DNA of 64,000 bases. Origin: Roseobacter sp. MH60115 (GTDB lineage: Bacteria > Pseudomonadota > Alphaproteobacteria > Rhodobacterales > Rhodobacteraceae). Shown here piece after piece: positions 3,942 through 52,095 of the stretch. The notes below the pieces were generated by a model. The model had not been told where the DNA came from. It saw only the letters and a program-made list of their open reading frames with translations, and did not search any database. The translations under genes were made by a program, and so were the position numbers. The number at the start of each line of letters is the position of its first letter. Position 1 is the stretch's first letter. The stretch covers positions 744,001-808,000 of the forward strand of contig NZ_JADOBQ010000002.1 of assembly GCF_015644665.1 (NCBI RefSeq), in the 5' to 3' direction.

Positions 3942-4806
3942 CATTTTTACGCAGACTGGCGCGCGCCGCGATCATTGCGCCGCCAGTCACGAGAATCGCC
4001 GCGATGCCCAATGTCGCCGACAACGGGGCAACGCCAGCCATGACAAGCACCAAGGTCGATAACAAGGGGGCCGCGTAGGACGCAGCGCCCAAGAGTTGTA
4101 TATCGCCCTGTTTGACGCCGATGTCCCAGACGAAAAAGGCCAGCCCCACGGGGCCGAGGCCAAGCAGAAGCGTTGCACTCCAGCCCAGAGCGGACTGTGG
4201 GAAAACCGTGTCTTCGAATATCAGGTGCAGCGGCAGGGACAGGGCGGCTGCCCCTAAGCAGAACACGGTGACGGACTGTGTCGGCGCGTCGCCCACCAAA
4301 CGGGAAAGCACCGAGTAGCTCGACCAGGTGAGTGCGCAGATCAGCGCCAGCCCATAGCCGGGCAGATAGTCGATGCGGAAACCACTGCCGCCGCCCGAGA
4401 TGATCAGCGCTGCGCCTGTGAAGCCGATGGCCGCGCCGATGAGATGACCTCTGCGCACTTCTTCGCCGGGCAGCAGACCGGACAGGATGACGATCAACAA
4501 AGGCCAAAGGTAGGCGATGAGCCCTGCCTCGGCAGCCGGTGCGAGACGCAGGGCAGAGAAATAGAGCGCGTGGTAGCCAAAAAGCCCAAGCGTACCAGAG
4601 ATATAGACGCGTAAGGGCACAGATCGCAGCATCGCAAACCCGCCCGAATGATATGTCCAGATCAAGCCGCAGGTGCCACCGATGGTGAAACATATGGTGT
4701 TGAGCAACAGCGGTGGCGTCGGCGCGGACCCGACGGTCAGCAGCGCAAGCAGGGCCCAAAGGATCACCGCGACAAATCCGATCAGCGTTGCGCGCATTCT
4801 CGTCAT
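3922..4806 (-). CDS. EamA/DMT-family exporter (YddG-like)
   Basis: A drug/metabolite transporter of 294 residues with about ten hydrophobic segments in two EamA halves; the second half starts near the GYGLALICALTWSSYSVLSR segment. The overall character resembles YddG aromatic amino-acid exporters, but the substrate is inferred only. ATG at 4806 overlaps the stop of the upstream LysR gene as ATGA, so regulator and exporter are translationally coupled and probably function as one unit. The 3' end runs 20 bases into the convergent YdcH gene. Confidence 0.85.
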   Translation of the reverse strand: MTRMRATLIGFVAVILWALLALLTVGSAPTPPLLLNTICFTIGGTCGLIWTYHSGGFAMLRSVPLRVYISGTLGLFGYHALYFSALRLAPAAEAGLIAYLWPLLIVILSGLLPGEEVRRGHLIGAAIGFTGAALIISGGGSGFRIDYLPGYGLALICALTWSSYSVLSRLVGDAPTQSVTVFCLGAAALSLPLHLIFEDTVFPQSALGWSATLLLGLGPVGLAFFVWDIGVKQGDIQLLGAASYAAPLLSTLVLVMAGVAPLSATLGIAAILVTGGAMIAARASLRKNASSTGA

Positions 4807-10625: not shown

Positions 10626-11246
10626 TCAGACTGCCCGTGCAACAACGCCGAAACTGGTCCTCGACGGCGGTCCGGCGGGAAAGCTGTAATGCGCCTCGAC
10701 GGCGAAACCCGCAGCCCGCAACAGCTCGTCGATTTCCCGCGGTCGAAATGTCCGGTGCCGCCATTGCAGCCAGATGATCACGTTGCACCAATGGGGCTTG
10801 GAGACGGACATCCACAGCCGCGCCCCGGGGCGCGCCATCGACCGCATCGCCTTAAGTGCGCTGAGCGGATCGTCGAAATGTTCGATGACATGGGCGGCAA
10901 GCAGCACGTCAAACGAACCCAGCCGGGCCTCTTCAAGACCGATATCGCAGGTTTCGGAGTTGACCCCGCGCTGCGCCAATGCGCCTTTGGCAAATTTCAG
11001 CATCGCCGGCGAGCGATCCAGCAGCACCATCCGGTCAGGCGCGCCGTGCAGGGCTGTCCAGGCCTCGGCCATGGCGCCGGTCCCGGTCCCGATGTCGATC
11101 ACCTCGATGCGCGCGGGCAGGTCGGGTCTGCGATCCGACAGAAACCCCAGATAGCCGTCGTAATAGCCCAAAACCCGCATCTTGTCGGACCAATTTGGCG
11201 CAACAGCTTCGTAAGGATCTTCAGGGCCCGAACCAACATGTTCCAT
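10626..11246 (-). CDS. Class I SAM-dependent methyltransferase
   Basis: A 206-residue methyltransferase. Motif I is VIDIGTGTGAMAEAW, followed by the acidic VLLDRSPAML and a motif IV-like AAHVIEHFDDPL, typical of the UbiE/MT11-like small-molecule group. ATG at 11246 gives the start MEHVGSGPEDPYEAVAPNW; an upstream TTG at 11294 is less likely. Convergent with rpsD and monocistronic. The substrate cannot be predicted. Confidence 0.8.
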   Translation of the reverse strand: MEHVGSGPEDPYEAVAPNWSDKMRVLGYYDGYLGFLSDRRPDLPARIEVIDIGTGTGAMAEAWTALHGAPDRMVLLDRSPAMLKFAKGALAQRGVNSETCDIGLEEARLGSFDVLLAAHVIEHFDDPLSALKAMRSMARPGARLWMSVSKPHWCNVIIWLQWRHRTFRPREIDELLRAAGFAVEAHYSFPAGPPSRTSFGVVARAV

Positions 11247-43243: not shown

Positions 43244-43681
43244 TCAGGTCGGCAACTCGACAATCCTCGAATAACTGCCCAGCATCTCCAACGCTTCCGA
43301 GAATGTTTCACTCGGGTTTTCCTTGACCAGATAACCGGCAACGTTTTTGCTGTAAGCCGATTGGATGTCATGCGGCATGTCGGAGGTGGTGAACACGAAT
43401 ACGACTGTTCGTTGAAGAGCCGGATCCGCGCGGATAGACTCCAGAAACTCCAACCCATTCATACGCGGCATGTTGAGATCCAATGTCACGATGAATGGGG
43501 GCAATCCACTCGGCCCCTCCCGTGCGGCGGCCTGCAGAATGTCCAGAGCTTCCTGTCCGTCTTTCGCAACCAGTGTTTTGTTCACAATCTTCAGTTTTTT
43601 TAACGCCCGTTTCATCGCCATGATGCTGATGAGATCGTCATCCACCAGAAGGAACGTGGCTTCTTTTGTTCTATCCTGCAT
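43244..43681 (-). CDS. Single-domain response regulator (Rcp1-like)
   Basis: A 145-residue receiver without an output domain. Acidic pocket VDDD, phospho-acceptor aspartate in LDLNMPRMNG, T/S in FVFTTSDM and lysine in GYLVKENP are all present. The class resembles Rcp1 partners of phytochrome-type kinases. It follows the membrane histidine kinase on the same strand by 30 bases, so the two likely form an operon; it may act by protein contact. ATG at 43681 has AGAGG upstream. Confidence 0.9.
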   Translation of the reverse strand: MQDRTKEATFLLVDDDLISIMAMKRALKKLKIVNKTLVAKDGQEALDILQAAAREGPSGLPPFIVTLDLNMPRMNGLEFLESIRADPALQRTVVFVFTTSDMPHDIQSAYSKNVAGYLVKENPSETFSEALEMLGSYSRIVELPT

Positions 43682-43711
43682 CGTCAAAACCTCTTGTTAA
43701 GGTGTCACTTC

Positions 43712-45661
43712 TTATGCCGCATCAGCCTGTGTTGCTTGTGAGGTTTCAGCGCATTCCTCAGCAGGGAAGCTGAAACGGAAACGAGCGCCGCGTCCCTTTT
43801 CCGGATTGGAGTCCAGCACGATGTCAGCCTTGTAGCGGTCCAGTAGTTTACGAATGATTGCGAGGCCCAATCCGCTGCCCTCTACCTCGTCGCGCGGGCG
43901 CAGGGTCTGAAACAGCTGATAAATCCGCTCCTGATACTCCTGTGGAATGCCGGGACCATCATCCGCGACCTCGACAAAGAACTGGTCGCCCTCAAAGTGT
44001 GCCGAAACCGTGATGTTGCCAGTGGTGCAATCATGATGCTTTATCGCGTTTGAAATCAGGTTGATCAGAATTTGTGTCAAAGGCGTTGTATGTGTTCGAA
44101 TTTCGCCGACCTCTCCGGTGTACTTGATCCTGAAGCCGTCCTTGGGATTCAACATGGTGGAAATCTGATCGATCAGTCGCGCCATGTCCAAATCGGCGAG
44201 ACCATCGTTCTCTTGCCCGGCGCGCGCATAGTCCAGAAGGTCGGTTAGCAGCCTGTCCAGTCTCTTTGCCCGGCTCTGCATCATTTCGAGATAGCTGCGG
44301 CTGTCGGTCGACAGTGCGTTTTCCTCATCCTCCAGCGTCCATTCTGCCAGATCATACACAGCGCGGAGTGGCGAGCGCAAATCGTGGGCTGCAACATATG
44401 CGAAGCGTTCAAGATCCACATTGGAGCGCTTCAACTCCTCGGCATTCTGTTTGAAAATCGACAGCGCGCGTGCCAGATCGCCCAGTTCATCTTGCCCCCC
44501 GACGTCGATCTTATGATCAAGGTTGCCCTCTGCAATCTCGCGCACTGCATGATGCAGGCGACCCATTCTGCTGTTGATTTGCTTTTCGATGATGATCGAG
44601 TTGCCGACCAGCGTGGTCATGGCGGCCAGAAGCAGGGATACCGCCAGAACCAGCGATAACAGCTGTGTTGCAGTGTTCAAAAGCTGAGATTTCTCGGCAA
44701 CCGATGCGACCGACTGCTCTGTCAACACTTCAACGAATTGCGATATCTCGCTTGCAAGTGCCACTCGCGCCTGCCGCAGCGCAATTAGCTTTTCCTTGTG
44801 AGCGAGCCGCGCTTCCCCGATCGCGATCAAACCCGCGTCGCCGAGCAGCCCGGAATTCAGTCTGATCGTCAGCCCTGCGAGTTCCGTTCGCTGTGCGCTC
44901 GGATTGATCTGCGCAAGAATAGAAGCGATACGCCTCAGCTTGCGCTCCAAAGTGGTGCGCAGTTGAAAAAAAGTTTTTGCAGTTTCATTACCTTGATCGA
45001 ACCTTGCCAGGTCGATTACGGTTTCAATATCCATAGAGAGGCTGTTGAGGTTGAGAGAGGCCAGAAACAGATCGGAGAACAACTGGTCAATGATGTCGAC
45101 AGATTCGATGCTCCCCTCGCGTGCTTGGCTCAGTAGGGCTTCAATCTCTACGGTGATTTGATAGTTCAGGCTTTCAAGCGCCTTACGTGCATCGGTCCTG
45201 ACGCCGGTGAGTTCTCGCTTGAGAGCCTCAAGCTGAGCTTCTGTCCGGAAAAGCGTTTTTTTCTGTTCAAAAAGCTCTTCAGTTGAGCTTTCCAAACGAT
45301 CGAGCCTGGCAATCAGGCGGTCGGTCAGGTCAGAGTGTTCACGCGCCTCCGCAACATCTAAGACCTGGTCACGAAAGCCCTGAATCTTCAACAGCAATTC
45401 GTCTTGCGCTTTGCTCAGTTGACTTGCGTTCTCGGCAAGGGTTGCGCGTTCCAACGACATGAACATGTTGCTTAATTCGCGCTCAACCGCTTGCGTTTGA
45501 ATCAGAACCGGCAGGGCGCCCTGGGTCAAAGCCCTATGTGCGGACGAGATATCCCGGAGTTGCACAAAACCGGCAAGGCAGGCCGCAACGGTGACGAGGC
45601 CCCCCACCAACAGAAGCAACCGCAATCGGGTGACAATTCCGGAGAACAGGCCGCGTTTCAT
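43712..45661 (-). CDS. Membrane sensor histidine kinase with long periplasmic domain
   Basis: About 649 residues. Transmembrane helices lie near 15-35 and 333-353, enclosing some 300 residues of helical periplasmic sensor with coiled-coil character. A HAMP linker (about 364-417) is followed by the H-box AAHDLRSPLRAVYDL (His near 426), N-box ISNAIKHHD and G-boxes DDGPGIP and EGSGLGLA. It ends with a TLRPRDEVEGSG motif also found in the second kinase at 47281. Divergent from a Tat-exported solute-binding protein gene, which is its likely partner. Start uncertain (GTG at 45688 possible). Confidence 0.88.
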   Translation of the reverse strand: MKRGLFSGIVTRLRLLLLVGGLVTVAACLAGFVQLRDISSAHRALTQGALPVLIQTQAVERELSNMFMSLERATLAENASQLSKAQDELLLKIQGFRDQVLDVAEAREHSDLTDRLIARLDRLESSTEELFEQKKTLFRTEAQLEALKRELTGVRTDARKALESLNYQITVEIEALLSQAREGSIESVDIIDQLFSDLFLASLNLNSLSMDIETVIDLARFDQGNETAKTFFQLRTTLERKLRRIASILAQINPSAQRTELAGLTIRLNSGLLGDAGLIAIGEARLAHKEKLIALRQARVALASEISQFVEVLTEQSVASVAEKSQLLNTATQLLSLVLAVSLLLAAMTTLVGNSIIIEKQINSRMGRLHHAVREIAEGNLDHKIDVGGQDELGDLARALSIFKQNAEELKRSNVDLERFAYVAAHDLRSPLRAVYDLAEWTLEDEENALSTDSRSYLEMMQSRAKRLDRLLTDLLDYARAGQENDGLADLDMARLIDQISTMLNPKDGFRIKYTGEVGEIRTHTTPLTQILINLISNAIKHHDCTTGNITVSAHFEGDQFFVEVADDGPGIPQEYQERIYQLFQTLRPRDEVEGSGLGLAIIRKLLDRYKADIVLDSNPEKGRGARFRFSFPAEECAETSQATQADAA

Positions 45662-45771
45662 GGGCTGGAGTGTCTTTGGCGTTTTCACACCGGAGGGAAT
45701 ACACAGGATGGTTTAAACTTATCTTAAGTGCAGAAAACTAGGTTCATGGCACCGCCGGGAGGATTGCGCGC

Positions 45772-47262
45772 ATGTCGAACCTGAAAATAACCTCTAGGGC
45801 GTCTTTATCGCGCCGATCGCTTTTGCAGTCAGCTGCGGCGCTTGGTGTCTCGGGTGTACTGCCGGTAGGCGCGATGGGCCAATCCAGTCTGCCGTTGCAT
45901 GCGCAGGTCGCCGCATGGGTGAAGGATGTTGTCGGTGCCAAACCGGGTGTTTTGTCCGTGTTGTGTCCTGATGGCTCTCAAAAGAATCTCGAACCGATCG
46001 CGCGGGCATTCACGGAGATGACGGGCGTGGAAATCAAACTCCGCATCGTCCCATCCGAGAGCTTGAATACACAGATCGCGCTGGAAGTGATCGCGGGTGA
46101 GAGCCAGTTCGACGTCGCCTTGCCGGCGACCTTTGGGGTTGCTGATCTGGTCGCATCGGATGTCGTGTTGCCGCTCGATACATTCGTTTCGGAGTATGAG
46201 CCGGCGTCGTTCCGCGATGACGCCCTCTATCGTATCGGCGACAGTTTTGATCACAAAACATATGGATTTCAGGCGGATGGTGACGCCTATCTCATGTTCT
46301 ATCACAAGGACATGCTTGAAAATCCGACGGAGGCGGCTGGGTACGAAGACAGGTTCGGCACCTCTCTGGATGTACCGCAAAGCTGGGCGGAACTGGACCG
46401 TCAGATGGAGTGGTTTCACCGTCCCGAAGACAATCAATGGGGCGGCATGCTTCTGCGGGCCTCCGGATATCTTGCTTGGGAGTGGTGGGTGCGCTTTCAC
46501 GCATATGGTGTATGGCCGTTTTCGGAAGATATGGTCTCTCAGATCGACTCGGTGGAAGGTCAGGCCGCTCTGGACGACATGATCCGGTCAGCTGAATTTC
46601 TTCATCCAGATGCAAAAAATTCAACGTTTTCAGAAACATGGAGGACGTTTGCTGAGGGGAGATCCTATTGCAATATCGGCTGGGGTGGGTCGCAGAAATA
46701 CTACAATCGGTCTGGCTCTGCCGTGAAAAACCGATTGAGCTATGGCCCGACACCGGGTGGGGCGATTGGCCCCGGCGGCGCCGTCGTGCCGATTCCCTAT
46801 TTCAACTGGGGATGGAGTTACGTGATCAACCGGGCCTCGACGCAACCTCGCGTCGGATATCTGTTTTCGCTTTTTGCCTCGAGTCCGGAAATGTCGACAA
46901 GGGCGGTGCGCGAAAGTGGCGGCTTTTTCGATCCGACCCGGCCTGAGCATTACAATGACCCTGTTATTCAGGACGTGTATTCCAAGCCGTTTCTGGATGT
47001 GCACAAGGACAGCTTACAACAGGCGATTCCCGATCTCTACCTGATGGGCCAGGCCGAGTACTTCCGTGTTCTGAACGAAGCGCTGGCCGATGCGATCAAT
47101 GGAAATGTCACGTCAAAGAACGCGCTGAAACGCGCCTCGCAGCTTTGGGAAATGATTACCAGCCGCATCGGGAGGGCTGCGCAAATCAACAGATGGCAAC
47201 AACTGAGAGCGAAATACCCCCCTGCCGTCTCCCAATACTTGCGAGACAAAAATGAAGCGTGA
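45772..47262 (+). CDS. Tat-exported ABC-type solute-binding protein, no transporter nearby
   Basis: A 496-residue periplasmic binding protein of the extracellular family 1 type. The N-terminus carries a twin-arginine signal, SRRSLLQSAAALGVSG. The fold is supported by TEMTGVEIKLRIVPSESLN, FDVALPATFGV, and GFQADGDAYLMFYHKDML. Permease and ATPase genes are absent; instead histidine kinases lie on both sides. That suggests a sensing role, ligand presentation to a kinase, rather than uptake. Ligand unknown; sugar or polyol binding would fit the family. Confidence 0.85.
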   Translation: MSNLKITSRASLSRRSLLQSAAALGVSGVLPVGAMGQSSLPLHAQVAAWVKDVVGAKPGVLSVLCPDGSQKNLEPIARAFTEMTGVEIKLRIVPSESLNTQIALEVIAGESQFDVALPATFGVADLVASDVVLPLDTFVSEYEPASFRDDALYRIGDSFDHKTYGFQADGDAYLMFYHKDMLENPTEAAGYEDRFGTSLDVPQSWAELDRQMEWFHRPEDNQWGGMLLRASGYLAWEWWVRFHAYGVWPFSEDMVSQIDSVEGQAALDDMIRSAEFLHPDAKNSTFSETWRTFAEGRSYCNIGWGGSQKYYNRSGSAVKNRLSYGPTPGGAIGPGGAVVPIPYFNWGWSYVINRASTQPRVGYLFSLFASSPEMSTRAVRESGGFFDPTRPEHYNDPVIQDVYSKPFLDVHKDSLQQAIPDLYLMGQAEYFRVLNEALADAINGNVTSKNALKRASQLWEMITSRIGRAAQINRWQQLRAKYPPAVSQYLRDKNEA

Positions 47263-47280
47263 AATTCACTCCCGTTAATA

Positions 47281-48075
47281 GTGTATTCAGCGCTCTTTCC
47301 TATGCTGCAGCGGACAAGAAATCTCAGGGCCCTTTTTTCCATGACACGACATGTTTCTTCGTATGGTGCAACTGCGAAATCCACACCGGTGATGACATCT
47401 CCTTCATCGAAGGATTTTGAGGATTTTATCTATCTCATCAGTCATGATGTGCGCAATTCCGTGCGCGCACTGATCGAATTGCCACAATGGATCGCGGAAG
47501 ACCTGACGGAGGCGGGGGTGCGTGTAGAGGGCTCTGTTGCTGAGAGCATCGATCTGATGAACAGGCACACTGGTCGGCTGGATCGCATGCTGGTTGACCT
47601 GCTGACATTCTCACGGGTGGGACGCATGCAGTCCGTTGAAGAGGTCGATCTCAACCAAGCGCTGAATGATGTGCTGGAGGAGATGCATATCCCGTCTGGC
47701 TTCAAAGTCGTGCGCGCCTTGGATTGTGATCGGATCAGCATCGGGGACAGGGACATCCTGACCCTGCTCACAGCGCTCATTTCCAATGCGATCAAGCATC
47801 ATGACCGAACCGTTGGAAAAGTGATTGTTTCCTCGTACCGCGACAATGACCAAATCGTCGTTTCGGTCCGTGACAACGGCCCTGGCATTCCGGCAGGATT
47901 TCACGAGAAGGTTTTCGGCGCAATGACAACGCTGCGGCCGCGCGATGAGATTGAGGGCAGCGGTATGGGCTTGGCCGTCACGCGCAAGATAGCGCAATAC
48001 TATGATGGGGACGTCCGCATTATCGAAAATCCCGAAGGCCGCGGGGCCACAATTGAAGTGCGCCTCGCCGCTTAG
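47281..48075 (+). CDS. Soluble histidine kinase without sensor domain
   Basis: Up to 264 residues, with no membrane segment. The H-box is YLISHDVRNSVRALIEL (His55 from this start), where the usual proline after the conserved R/S is a valine. N-box ISNAIKHHD, G1 DNGPGIP and G2 EGSGMGLA are intact. TTLRPRDEIEGSG matches the membrane kinase, showing common origin. It follows the binding protein by 18 bases, likely in one operon. The start is unclear: GTG 47281, ATG 47302, 47341 or 47392 all lack good ribosome sites. Confidence 0.8.
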   Translation: MYSALFPMLQRTRNLRALFSMTRHVSSYGATAKSTPVMTSPSSKDFEDFIYLISHDVRNSVRALIELPQWIAEDLTEAGVRVEGSVAESIDLMNRHTGRLDRMLVDLLTFSRVGRMQSVEEVDLNQALNDVLEEMHIPSGFKVVRALDCDRISIGDRDILTLLTALISNAIKHHDRTVGKVIVSSYRDNDQIVVSVRDNGPGIPAGFHEKVFGAMTTLRPRDEIEGSGMGLAVTRKIAQYYDGDVRIIENPEGRGATIEVRLAA

Positions 48076-50171: not shown

Positions 50172-50963
50172 ATGACCAGAACTGCAAAAATTCTGCTGAC
50201 CGCCTGTGCCTTCGTCGTCGCGGCAACGACGGCCCAGGCAAGATGTGCCATCCTGTTGCATGGATTGGCGCGTACCGAGCTTTCCTTCGCGGTCATGGAA
50301 GCGGCGCTGAATGCCGAAGGCTACACGGTCGTGCGCCCCGGCTACCCGTCAACCGAAGCGCCCGTTGCAGAGCTCGTTGCGCAGACGCTGCCCGATGCGA
50401 TGGCAAACTGCGGCCCGCGCGGAAAGGTCGACTTCGTGACCCACTCCATGGGCGGTATCCTGTTGCGGCAATGGGTGGCGAGCACGGACGCCGCTCGGAT
50501 TGGTCGCGTCGTGATGCTGGCCCCGCCCAACCAAGGGAGCGAAGTCGTGGATGCACTGGACGATATCGAAGCCTTTGACTGGATCAGCGGTCCGGCGGGC
50601 GCGCAGCTGGGCACGGGGCCAGAGGATCTTCCGCGTCGCTTGCCGCCGGTCACGTTTGATCTGGGCGTGATCGCCGGGGACCAGTCGCTGAACCCCTACT
50701 TTTCCTCCCTCCTGCCGGGACGTGACGATGGTAAGGTGTCGGTGGCGTCAACCCGCGTGGCGGGCATGAACGATCACATCGTCCTGCCGGTGACCCATAC
50801 TTTCATGATGAACAACCCGCGGGTGATTGCGCAGACGGTGGCCTTTCTGAACACCGGGCGTTTTGATCGCTCGCTGACCTGGTTTGATGCGGTCCTGTCT
50901 CAGCTTGGCTGCCCGAATGGCAATTGTGTGCCGAGTGTGGGGGAAATGATTGGCCGACCTTAG
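50172..50963 (+). CDS. Exported lipase/esterase-like alpha/beta hydrolase
   Basis: A 263-residue protein with signal peptide ([17 protein letters not shown]). The oxyanion motif [12 protein letters not shown] and nucleophile elbow [13 protein letters not shown] identify an EstA/triacylglycerol-lipase-type fold, and the family segment [12 protein letters not shown] follows. Late histidine in LPVTHTFMM. Probably periplasmic. The 3' end overlaps phnM by 14 bases. Confidence 0.87.
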
Positions 50964-52095
50964 GTTTCAGGGCGGACAGGTGTTGCGGAGGGAAGGGTTG
51001 TGCGTCGATGACCTGTCCCTTTCGGATGGTGTTCTTGTTGACGGGGTGGCTGGAAGGTCGGTGAACCTTGACGGTTATCTTGTCCTGCCGGGCATTGTTG
51101 ATCTGCACGGCGATGGGTTTGAACGTCACCTCGCGCCGCGCCGGGGCGCCATGAAGCAAATGGCCGAAGGCCTTGTCGCTGCCGAGGCGGAACTGGCCGC
51201 GAATGGCGTCACCACCGCCGTGCTGGCACAGTTTGTCAGCTGGGAAGGCGGGTTGCGCGGCCTCGCGTTTGCAGATCAGGTTTTTGGCGCGATCCGTGAC
51301 GTCCGCCCGTCGCTGGTGACGGACCTGCGGGCGCAATTGCGGTTCGAAACCCACCTTCTCGACCTCTATGACAGCCTGCCTTCACGCGTGGATGCGTGGG
51401 GTGTGGACTACGTGGTTTTTAACGATCACTTGCCCCATCAGCGGCTCTCCGAGGGGCGTAAACCGCCGCGTATGGTGGGCCAGGCGCTCAAGGCCGGGCG
51501 CAATCCGGATGATCATTTCGCGATGATGCAAAAGCTGCATGCGCAGACAGACATGGTTCCGGAGGCGCTGGATGCGCTCTGCGCGCGACTGCGTGCGCAG
51601 GGCAAGCAGATGGGCAGCCATGACGACGCGAGCCGGGAGCAGCGCAAAATCTGGCATGACCGGGGCGTGCTGATTGCCGAGTTTCCCGAAACGCTGGAGG
51701 CGGCGGAGGCGGCAAAAGCGTCGGGTGATCCCGTGGTGCTGGGTGCGCCCAACGTGGTGCGCGGCGGATCGCACAACGGCAACGTCTCTGCGTTGGAGCT
51801 GATCAGCATGGAGCTGTGTGACGCGCTCGCCTCTGACTACCACTATCCCAGCCCGCGCCGCGCGGCGCTGATATTGCAGAAATCGGGGGTCGCCAGCTTG
51901 GCCGAGAGTTGGCGATTGATTTCGGAGGGGCCTGCACAGGTGCTCGGCCTGACCGACCGGGGGACCCTGACGCCGGGCAAGCGTGCGGATATCGTGATCC
52001 TTGATGCCGCAACACAACGCGTTGCCGCGACACTTGTCGCAGGCCGCTTCAGTCACTTGTCAGGTGAGATCGCCGATCGCTTTTTTGCCGCCTGA
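50950..52095 (+). CDS. phnM: PhnM, ribose-1-methylphosphonate triphosphate diphosphatase
   Basis: A 381-residue amidohydrolase that releases PPi from alpha-D-ribose 1-methylphosphonate 5-triphosphate in C-P lyase metabolism. Metal motif [33 protein letters not shown], and [16 protein letters not shown] are PhnM features. TTG start at 50950 is preceded by GGGGGA and overlaps the lipase gene. No other phn genes are present, so the gene is separated from the C-P lyase cluster or works alone. Confidence 0.92.

Follow-up and report, generated by a model that had tools for sequence, protein, structure and literature searches.

We analysed a window of 64,000 nucleotides of Roseobacter sp. MH60115 (contig NZ_JADOBQ010000002.1, here C12, positions 744,001 to 808,000) and focused on a cluster of four genes encoding a response regulator (RR), a membrane histidine kinase (HK1), an exported solute-binding protein (SBP) and a soluble histidine kinase (HK2; Table 1). 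We propose, with a probability of about 0.7, that SBP, HK1 and RR form a three-component sensory system and that HK2 acts on the same receiver. The exported SBP would bind a small solute in the periplasm and dock on the TorS-like helical head of HK1, and the docked protein is predicted to shift HK1 between kinase and phosphatase activity via the HAMP domain. HK1 would hand phosphate to the neighbouring Rcp1-like receiver, and HK2, which lacks a sensor and is encoded behind the SBP, probably acts on that receiver too. We base the docking and switching on the kinship with TorS and the strict pairing of SBP and sensor, the phosphotransfer on gene order and kinase type, and the role of HK2 on recognition residues similar to those of HK1. 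The SBP gene is kept beside a kinase at 22 of 23 readable loci, 20 of 21 divergent kinases have a receiver next to them, and only L073 (see below) has a permease instead, which is the arrangement of SBP-activated three-component systems.

We collected 26 SBP loci, at 38-82% identity, from relatives, the family, the class and named genomes. Six came from the genus (6 of 19 genomes searched, own genome included), another 15 were spread over 14 other family genomes (394 searched), and four belonged to three additional families of the class, among 337 genomes. The SBP, at 40% identity or more, is present in 15 of the 394 family genomes. Outside the class we found it on one Bacteriovoracaceae contig; three of the four named SBP loci are recorded as Roseobacter, and a phylum-wide draw of 349 genomes gave no additional locus. 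The distribution of the cluster is patchy across genus and family. These counts exclude the SBP of G1055 (two overlapping pieces in different frames), that of G696 (29%), the transporter-linked L061, L062 and plasmid records (28-32%; three of the nine plasmid records were read), and 12 weaker matches (27% or less, G020 among them). L027, near-identical to L025, was omitted from alignments A4 and A5.

The contig ends at the SBP in L047, L050 and L074, which leaves the upstream flank readable at 23 loci. A histidine kinase adjoins the SBP at 22 of them, and at 21 it is divergent and directly upstream. On the Bacteriovoracaceae contig (L022, 2255-5727) the kinase gene lies directly downstream and overlaps the SBP gene; this SBP is 43% identical to that of the window, and the kinase is a hybrid one whose N-terminal part has no relevant Pfam match. 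The only one of the 23 loci with no kinase is L073, where a permease stands beside the SBP instead. At 20 of the 21 loci the divergent kinase has a receiver gene next to it (L060 judged by eye). No receiver was seen beside HK1 at L056, the only such divergent locus; the open reading frame (ORF) directly behind this HK1 (4097-4768) looks by eye like a piece of a transposase. Among the 25 loci whose downstream side can be read (all but L056), 12 have HK2 behind the SBP. The complete set of four genes, in the order of the window, is present at 11 of the 22 loci where both sides are readable (the own genome counted). The four-gene arrangement is not chance. The co-occurrence of all four genes, which the initial annotation proposed as a check, holds for half of these loci, and HK2 is not a fixed member.

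The reverse search gave the same pairing. Alignment A4 of the HK1 sensors matched 42 of the 394 family genomes at E 1e-5 (at most five candidates were scored per genome, and at most three in the SBP search). Strong matches (E 4.5e-50 or better) occurred in 14 genomes, all of them among the 15 with an SBP; in the fifteenth, G254 (64% complete), the SBP is at a contig end. High scores are expected by construction because A4 includes the sensors of 13 of these 14 genomes. The sensor of G137 is absent from A4 and was recovered independently, on another contig than its SBP, which itself ends a contig. The informative outcome is that no family genome without the SBP had a strong sensor match. The next match (E 4.3e-23) lies in G181 (L143 5746-7863), where two in-frame stops interrupt an HK1-like gene; G181 lacks an SBP match at E 1e-50 and we recognised no SBP gene in the vicinity, perhaps reflecting a loss of the whole system. 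The pairing of SBP and HK1 sensor is close to strict in both directions.

The periplasmic domain of HK1 is distantly related to the TorS sensor. A profile built from the N-terminal regions of 21 HK1s matched Escherichia coli TorS (3i9w, E 2.9e-5) over nearly its full length, and TorS chains of Vibrio parahaemolyticus at 0.002. Chemoreceptor HAMP regions scored above TorS, and the other matches were HAMP domains and helical proteins. In a Foldseek search with the AlphaFold (AF2) model of HK1, the first six PDB matches were TorS sensor chains (best E 9.3e-6), with TM by target of 0.54-0.74, i.e., the TorS fold; this model was built from four sequences and is the best of five (pLDDT 39.8-68.8), at a middling 68.8. 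Among the relatives, L071 matches the Pfam TorS model PF21689 at 46.1 bits (cut-off 27) and L072 falls just below (25.3). Profile comparisons linked the type-1 sensors to L071/L072 (97.0%), and L071/L072 to TorS-type kinases (96.7%). Compared directly with the TorS-type kinases, the type-2 sensors (see below) reached 61.4% and the group of L054, L056, L058 and L059 40.5%; reversed and unrelated controls gave 0.1-2.0%. The suggestion of the initial annotation that the SBP reports to HK1 gains from both results, since the pair is conserved at 22 of 23 loci and its sensor resembles that of TorS, a kinase known to respond to a binding protein.

Kinase and receiver differ at four loci where the sensor is kept. 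These type-2 loci (L053, L055, L057, L060) have a kinase core of the HE(V/I)RTPLN kind; scored with a profile made from the cores of both window kinases, HK1 and HK2, these reached 44-69 bits. Five of six own-genome kinases fell in the same range (L080 reached 138), the 17 other divergent HK1s scored 118 bits or more, and the L022 kinase 56. Type-2 receivers lack the VELP end and are CheY-like and shorter (L053 and L057 by alignment, L055 and L060 by inspection). The SBPs of these loci form one clade (support 92/92), and in a profile comparison their sensors, as a group, reach 97.2% with those of type 1 (290 columns). Taken singly, the sensors of L055 (E 1.6e-15) and L053 (8e-5) were found by a profile of type-1 sensors only, that of L060 was not significant (0.79), and that of L057 had no match with this profile. 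The simplest reading of these sequences is that kinase and receiver changed once while the SBP-sensor unit was retained: the sensor persists at four loci of one SBP clade while kinase core and receiver differ, which suggests that SBP and sensor belong together.

HK2 appears to be a diverged sister of HK1. In the kinase tree all 12 HK2 sequences group together (100/99), nested with moderate support (87/85) in a 28-row clade with 16 of the 17 HK1s that are not type-2 (L072 is outside); the program warns of long branches in this tree. The six other own-genome kinases tested all fall outside the clade of HK1 and HK2. The initial annotation had taken shared motifs as a sign of common descent; the motifs (NAIKHHD and RDE(V/I)EGSG) are real, and the two kinases are closer to each other than to those six. 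The same annotation called for a comparison of specificity residues, and these are largely common to both kinases. At positions H+7, +8, +11, +12 and +15, which we take to be those of partner recognition, HK1 has RADLW and HK2 has RAELW, each in 9 of the 11 same-locus pairs. Every HK1-HK2 pair agrees at three to four of these five positions, whereas only 9-14 of the surrounding 36 residues agree. Type-2 kinases have NAGLL or similar, and HK2 was seen beside none of the four. For the Arg at +7, direct evidence of a role in receiver binding is reported in DrBphP (PMC8292422). We infer from these residues that HK2 may share or tune the receiver.

The role of HK2 could be more specific. It might mainly serve as a dedicated phosphatase, setting the baseline for the receiver that both kinases share, with HK1 as the ligand-controlled kinase, a refinement of the three-component proposal that we find rather unlikely as it stands. 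At H+5 of the H-box, Pro is found in all 22 kinases in the HK1 position and Ser in 12 of 12 HK2, and the H-box proline is reported to cause the kink of the DHp domain (PMC3904827). At H+4, seven of the 12 HK2, including that of the window, have Asn, and a T/N at this position is reported to be needed for phosphatase activity in HisKA kinases (PMC3510030). Yet the other five have Ser, Gly or Ala, and the acid at H+1 that is needed for kinase activity is kept in all 12. Moreover, in the related kinase DrBphP, changing H+4 to Thr or Asn reportedly abolished phosphatase activity (PMC8292422), hence the H+4 residue alone decides nothing.

The SBP could instead still serve in uptake with a permease and an ATPase encoded elsewhere, in which case the adjacent kinase would only regulate this uptake. 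SBPs of 28-32% identity are ordinary ABC partners (the five loci read encode two permeases and two ATPases), L073 has a permease beside its SBP, and BctC of Bordetella is reported to perform both jobs (PMC9602780). We nevertheless consider uptake improbable. As the initial annotation had noticed, the SBP has no permease gene nearby: none of the 88 PF00528 matches of the genome lies in the window. We read the loci of the 13 best of 19 own-genome matches to the L073 permease, and each has its own SBP (six found by the SBP profile, seven by Pfam); the nearest is only 31% identical to that permease. Among these 13 nearest permease loci there is thus no transporter lacking its own SBP that could be dedicated to ours. 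L073 is also the only readable locus of the 26 with a permease directly beside the SBP; at L023, an ABC set, own SBP included, lies a few genes downstream. The protein seems to be an ABC-type binding protein that has left transport and become a dedicated sensor.

That HK1 senses a ligand or a stress directly, with the SBP as a mere genomic companion, is improbable: direct binding of small ligands does occur in helical periplasmic domains with a related fold, and McpS ligand-binding structures are among the further, weaker fold matches of the HK1 model, but the pairing with the SBP is near strict both ways, the SBP stays with the sensor where the kinase type differs, and in L022 it adjoins a different kinase with an unrelated sensor, which suggests that the SBP itself is tied to signalling.

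Some observations weigh against the three-component system. The SBP of L073 is a close relative (42-44%) with a permease and no kinase beside it, so that the SBP subfamily is not purely sensory. The HK1 of the window alone has no match to PF21689 at E 0.1, and in direct profile comparison the type-1 sensors reach only 73.4% with TorS-type kinases. RR has no output domain, and HK2 is absent from 13 of 25 loci. Finally, the AlphaFold model of the SBP (five sequences) has a pLDDT of 44.3 and was not used for the ligand site or for docking.

The SBP has 42 invariant columns across 25 SBPs, including Q167, D169, D171, W236, E237, W304, N345 and W346, which points to a functional ligand site. Among solved structures, a trehalose/maltose-binding protein is the best match to the SBP profile. 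The ligand is probably sugar- or polyol-like, given the SBP family and the invariant aromatic residues. Gene context was also considered: L073 has a gene of the histidinol-dehydrogenase family and one that looks by eye like LacI, and L074 has a thiamine-pyrophosphate enzyme and an Amidohydro_2 protein. Since these neighbours disagree, we claim no ligand from context. Downstream of the cluster, a gene that looks by eye like PhnM (50950-52095) recurs as a neighbour in several relatives, and no other phosphonate genes were noticed between it and the cluster. We dropped it as a hint because the cluster stands in other surroundings at L023 and L046.

RR is an Rcp1-like receiver, i.e., a receiver without output domain that is kin to Rcp1 and DrRR according to Pfam, PDB matches and alignment; RcpA, RcpB and Rcp1 were, with 6xvu, its best PDB matches. 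The kinase core of HK1 in turn best matches bacteriophytochromes. Some relatives encode a second receiver (about 170-270 residues) near HK2 or behind HK1/RR (L024, L046 with two copies, L048, L051, L054, L058 and L059), and G137 (L150) has one behind HK1; six of these proteins were confirmed as Response_reg by Pfam. Several carry a C-terminal extension matching no Pfam family. We recognised no second receiver behind the HK2 of the window or of L025, L026, L027 and L052, and a search of the window for a remnant of one was likewise negative.

The kind of system is already known. SBP-activated kinases include TorT-TorS, XylFII-LytS and LuxP-LuxQ (PMC6321045), CuaD-CuaS-CuaR (PMC10384115) and BctC-BctE (PMC9602780), although only about ten cases of SBPs activating sensor kinases had been characterised by 2022 (PMC9602780). 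The suggestion of the initial annotation that the system is a candidate for an undescribed one is not supported for the kind, of which TorT-TorS and CuaD-CuaS are described examples; the present combination of parts looks new. That annotation did not note the kinship with TorS, the different kinase type found with a conserved sensor, or the additional receiver that some relatives encode. A literature search by title and start of abstract returned no paper on this cluster, which is weak evidence of absence, as subscription papers mostly lie outside its scope.

The closest comparison is with TorT-TorS-TorR (trimethylamine N-oxide; E. coli and Vibrio), which likewise has a transporterless periplasmic binding protein beside a kinase with a homologous helical sensor, the three parts being in one gene neighbourhood. 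However, TorT is of the Peripla_BP_1/4 kind and our SBP of the SBP_bac_1/8 kind, and TorS is a hybrid kinase that also carries receiver and Hpt domains whereas HK1 is a plain kinase ending with HATPase_c, which sets the cluster apart from TorTSR. TorR is the DNA-binding partner of TorS; RR, in contrast, has no output domain, and the cluster has a second kinase, HK2. TorT is reported to bind TorS in cells (PMC3795677). CuaD-CuaS-CuaR (cellobiose; Ruminiclostridium cellulolyticum) resembles the cluster in arrangement: a signalling binding protein, reported to bind CuaS, stands beside a two-component pair. Its host is Gram-positive, the pair controls a neighbouring ABC operon, and no second kinase is described there (PMC10384115). 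The phytochrome pairs DrBphP/DrRR and Cph1/Rcp1 are of the kind to which the best PDB matches of RR and of the HK1 core belong, but those kinases take light, whereas the input of HK1 would be a periplasmic protein-coupled sensor, and HK1 lacks a chromophore domain. Our SBP shares its family with ABC binding proteins of the MalE type (28-32% identity), which are encoded with two permeases and two ATPases; it differs in having a kinase neighbour and no transporter genes.

All four ORFs were found where the initial annotation had placed them (Table 1). RR matches only Response_reg in Pfam; its start is listed as TTG, and an ATG two codons downstream is equally likely. HK1 has HAMP, HisKA and a C-terminal HATPase_c after a long helical N-terminal region. 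The Tat export of the SBP, also proposed before, agrees with a TAT_signal match below cut-off (E 0.013) and with a twin Arg kept in at least 90% of 25 aligned SBPs, next to the SBP_bac_1/SBP_bac_8 matches. HK2 matches HATPase_c and, below cut-off, HisKA, and no sensor domain; its start codon is unsure because conservation starts near residue 40. The region between HK1 and SBP is the likely site of both their promoters. The cluster is flanked by genes that look by eye like groEL and an EamA-type transporter. Rfam gave no match in the window at gathering scores.

Table 1. Features of the sensory cluster (positions in the window) and second receivers of relatives (positions in the named locus).
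Feature	Position	Strand	Basis
RR, single-domain response regulator of the Rcp1/bacteriophytochrome-receiver type, C-terminal VELP end	43244..43687	-	Pfam Response_reg; best PDB match 6xvu (E 1.1e-23); alignment with 15 neighbours of HK1 relatives
HK1, membrane histidine kinase, TM-periplasmic helical domain-TM-HAMP-HisKA-HATPase_c	43712..45688	-	Pfam; alignment A1
HK1 periplasmic TorS-like sensor domain, about residues 45-330 (approximate limits)	44699..45556	-	Profile match; Foldseek of model; profile-profile chain
HK1-SBP divergent intergenic region, 83 bases	45689..45771	.	ORF coordinates; divergent order at 21/23 loci
SBP, Tat-type exported MalE-like solute-binding protein	45772..47262	+	Pfam SBP_bac_1/SBP_bac_8; 42 invariant columns in 25 relatives
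HK2, soluble histidine kinase without sensor, H-box HDVRNSVRAL	47281..48075	+	Pfam; kinase tree; H-box comparison
Second receiver ORF, L024	8448-8972		
Second receiver ORFs, L046	4484-5185 and ~10682-11206		
Second receiver ORF, L048	4421-5236		
Second receiver ORF, L051	9780-10187		
Second receiver ORF, L059	10961-11713		
Second receiver ORF, L150	2447-3187		

Weaker A4 matches lie next to other binding proteins. Of 15 stretches read, L143 and L150 belong to the present family, L138, L140, L146 and L151 gave no assignment, and nine have SBPs of other classes: Peripla_BP_6 (L139, L141, L144, L149), Peripla_BP_1/4 (L142, L145, L148, L152) and SBP_bac_11/6 (L147). The Peripla_BP_1/4 stretches encode large TorS-type kinases with the binding-protein gene divergent, and genes that look by eye like betaine-type ABC binding proteins nearby; PF21689 was above cut-off in the three scanned (L142, L148, L152). 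L139 (3407-7478; own genome, contig C12 at about 931-935 kb) and L149 (3475-7477) are chemoreceptors with a Peripla_BP_6 gene directly beside each, and they match over half of the sensor model only.

We tentatively suggest, with well under even confidence, that the TorS-type head is a general adaptor for unrelated classes of binding proteins, on varied kinase cores and perhaps chemoreceptors. Here it would have been joined by a dedicated signalling SBP and by a duplicated kinase, HK2, without sensor and H-box proline, setting the baseline of a shared receiver without output domain. The set is compact and recurrent, and because it includes natural variants in which the kinase type differs while SBP and sensor are retained, the step from binding protein to sensor is testable with defined partners. 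In marine relatives of Roseobacter, it also exemplifies an ABC-type binding protein that has apparently turned into a dedicated sensor.

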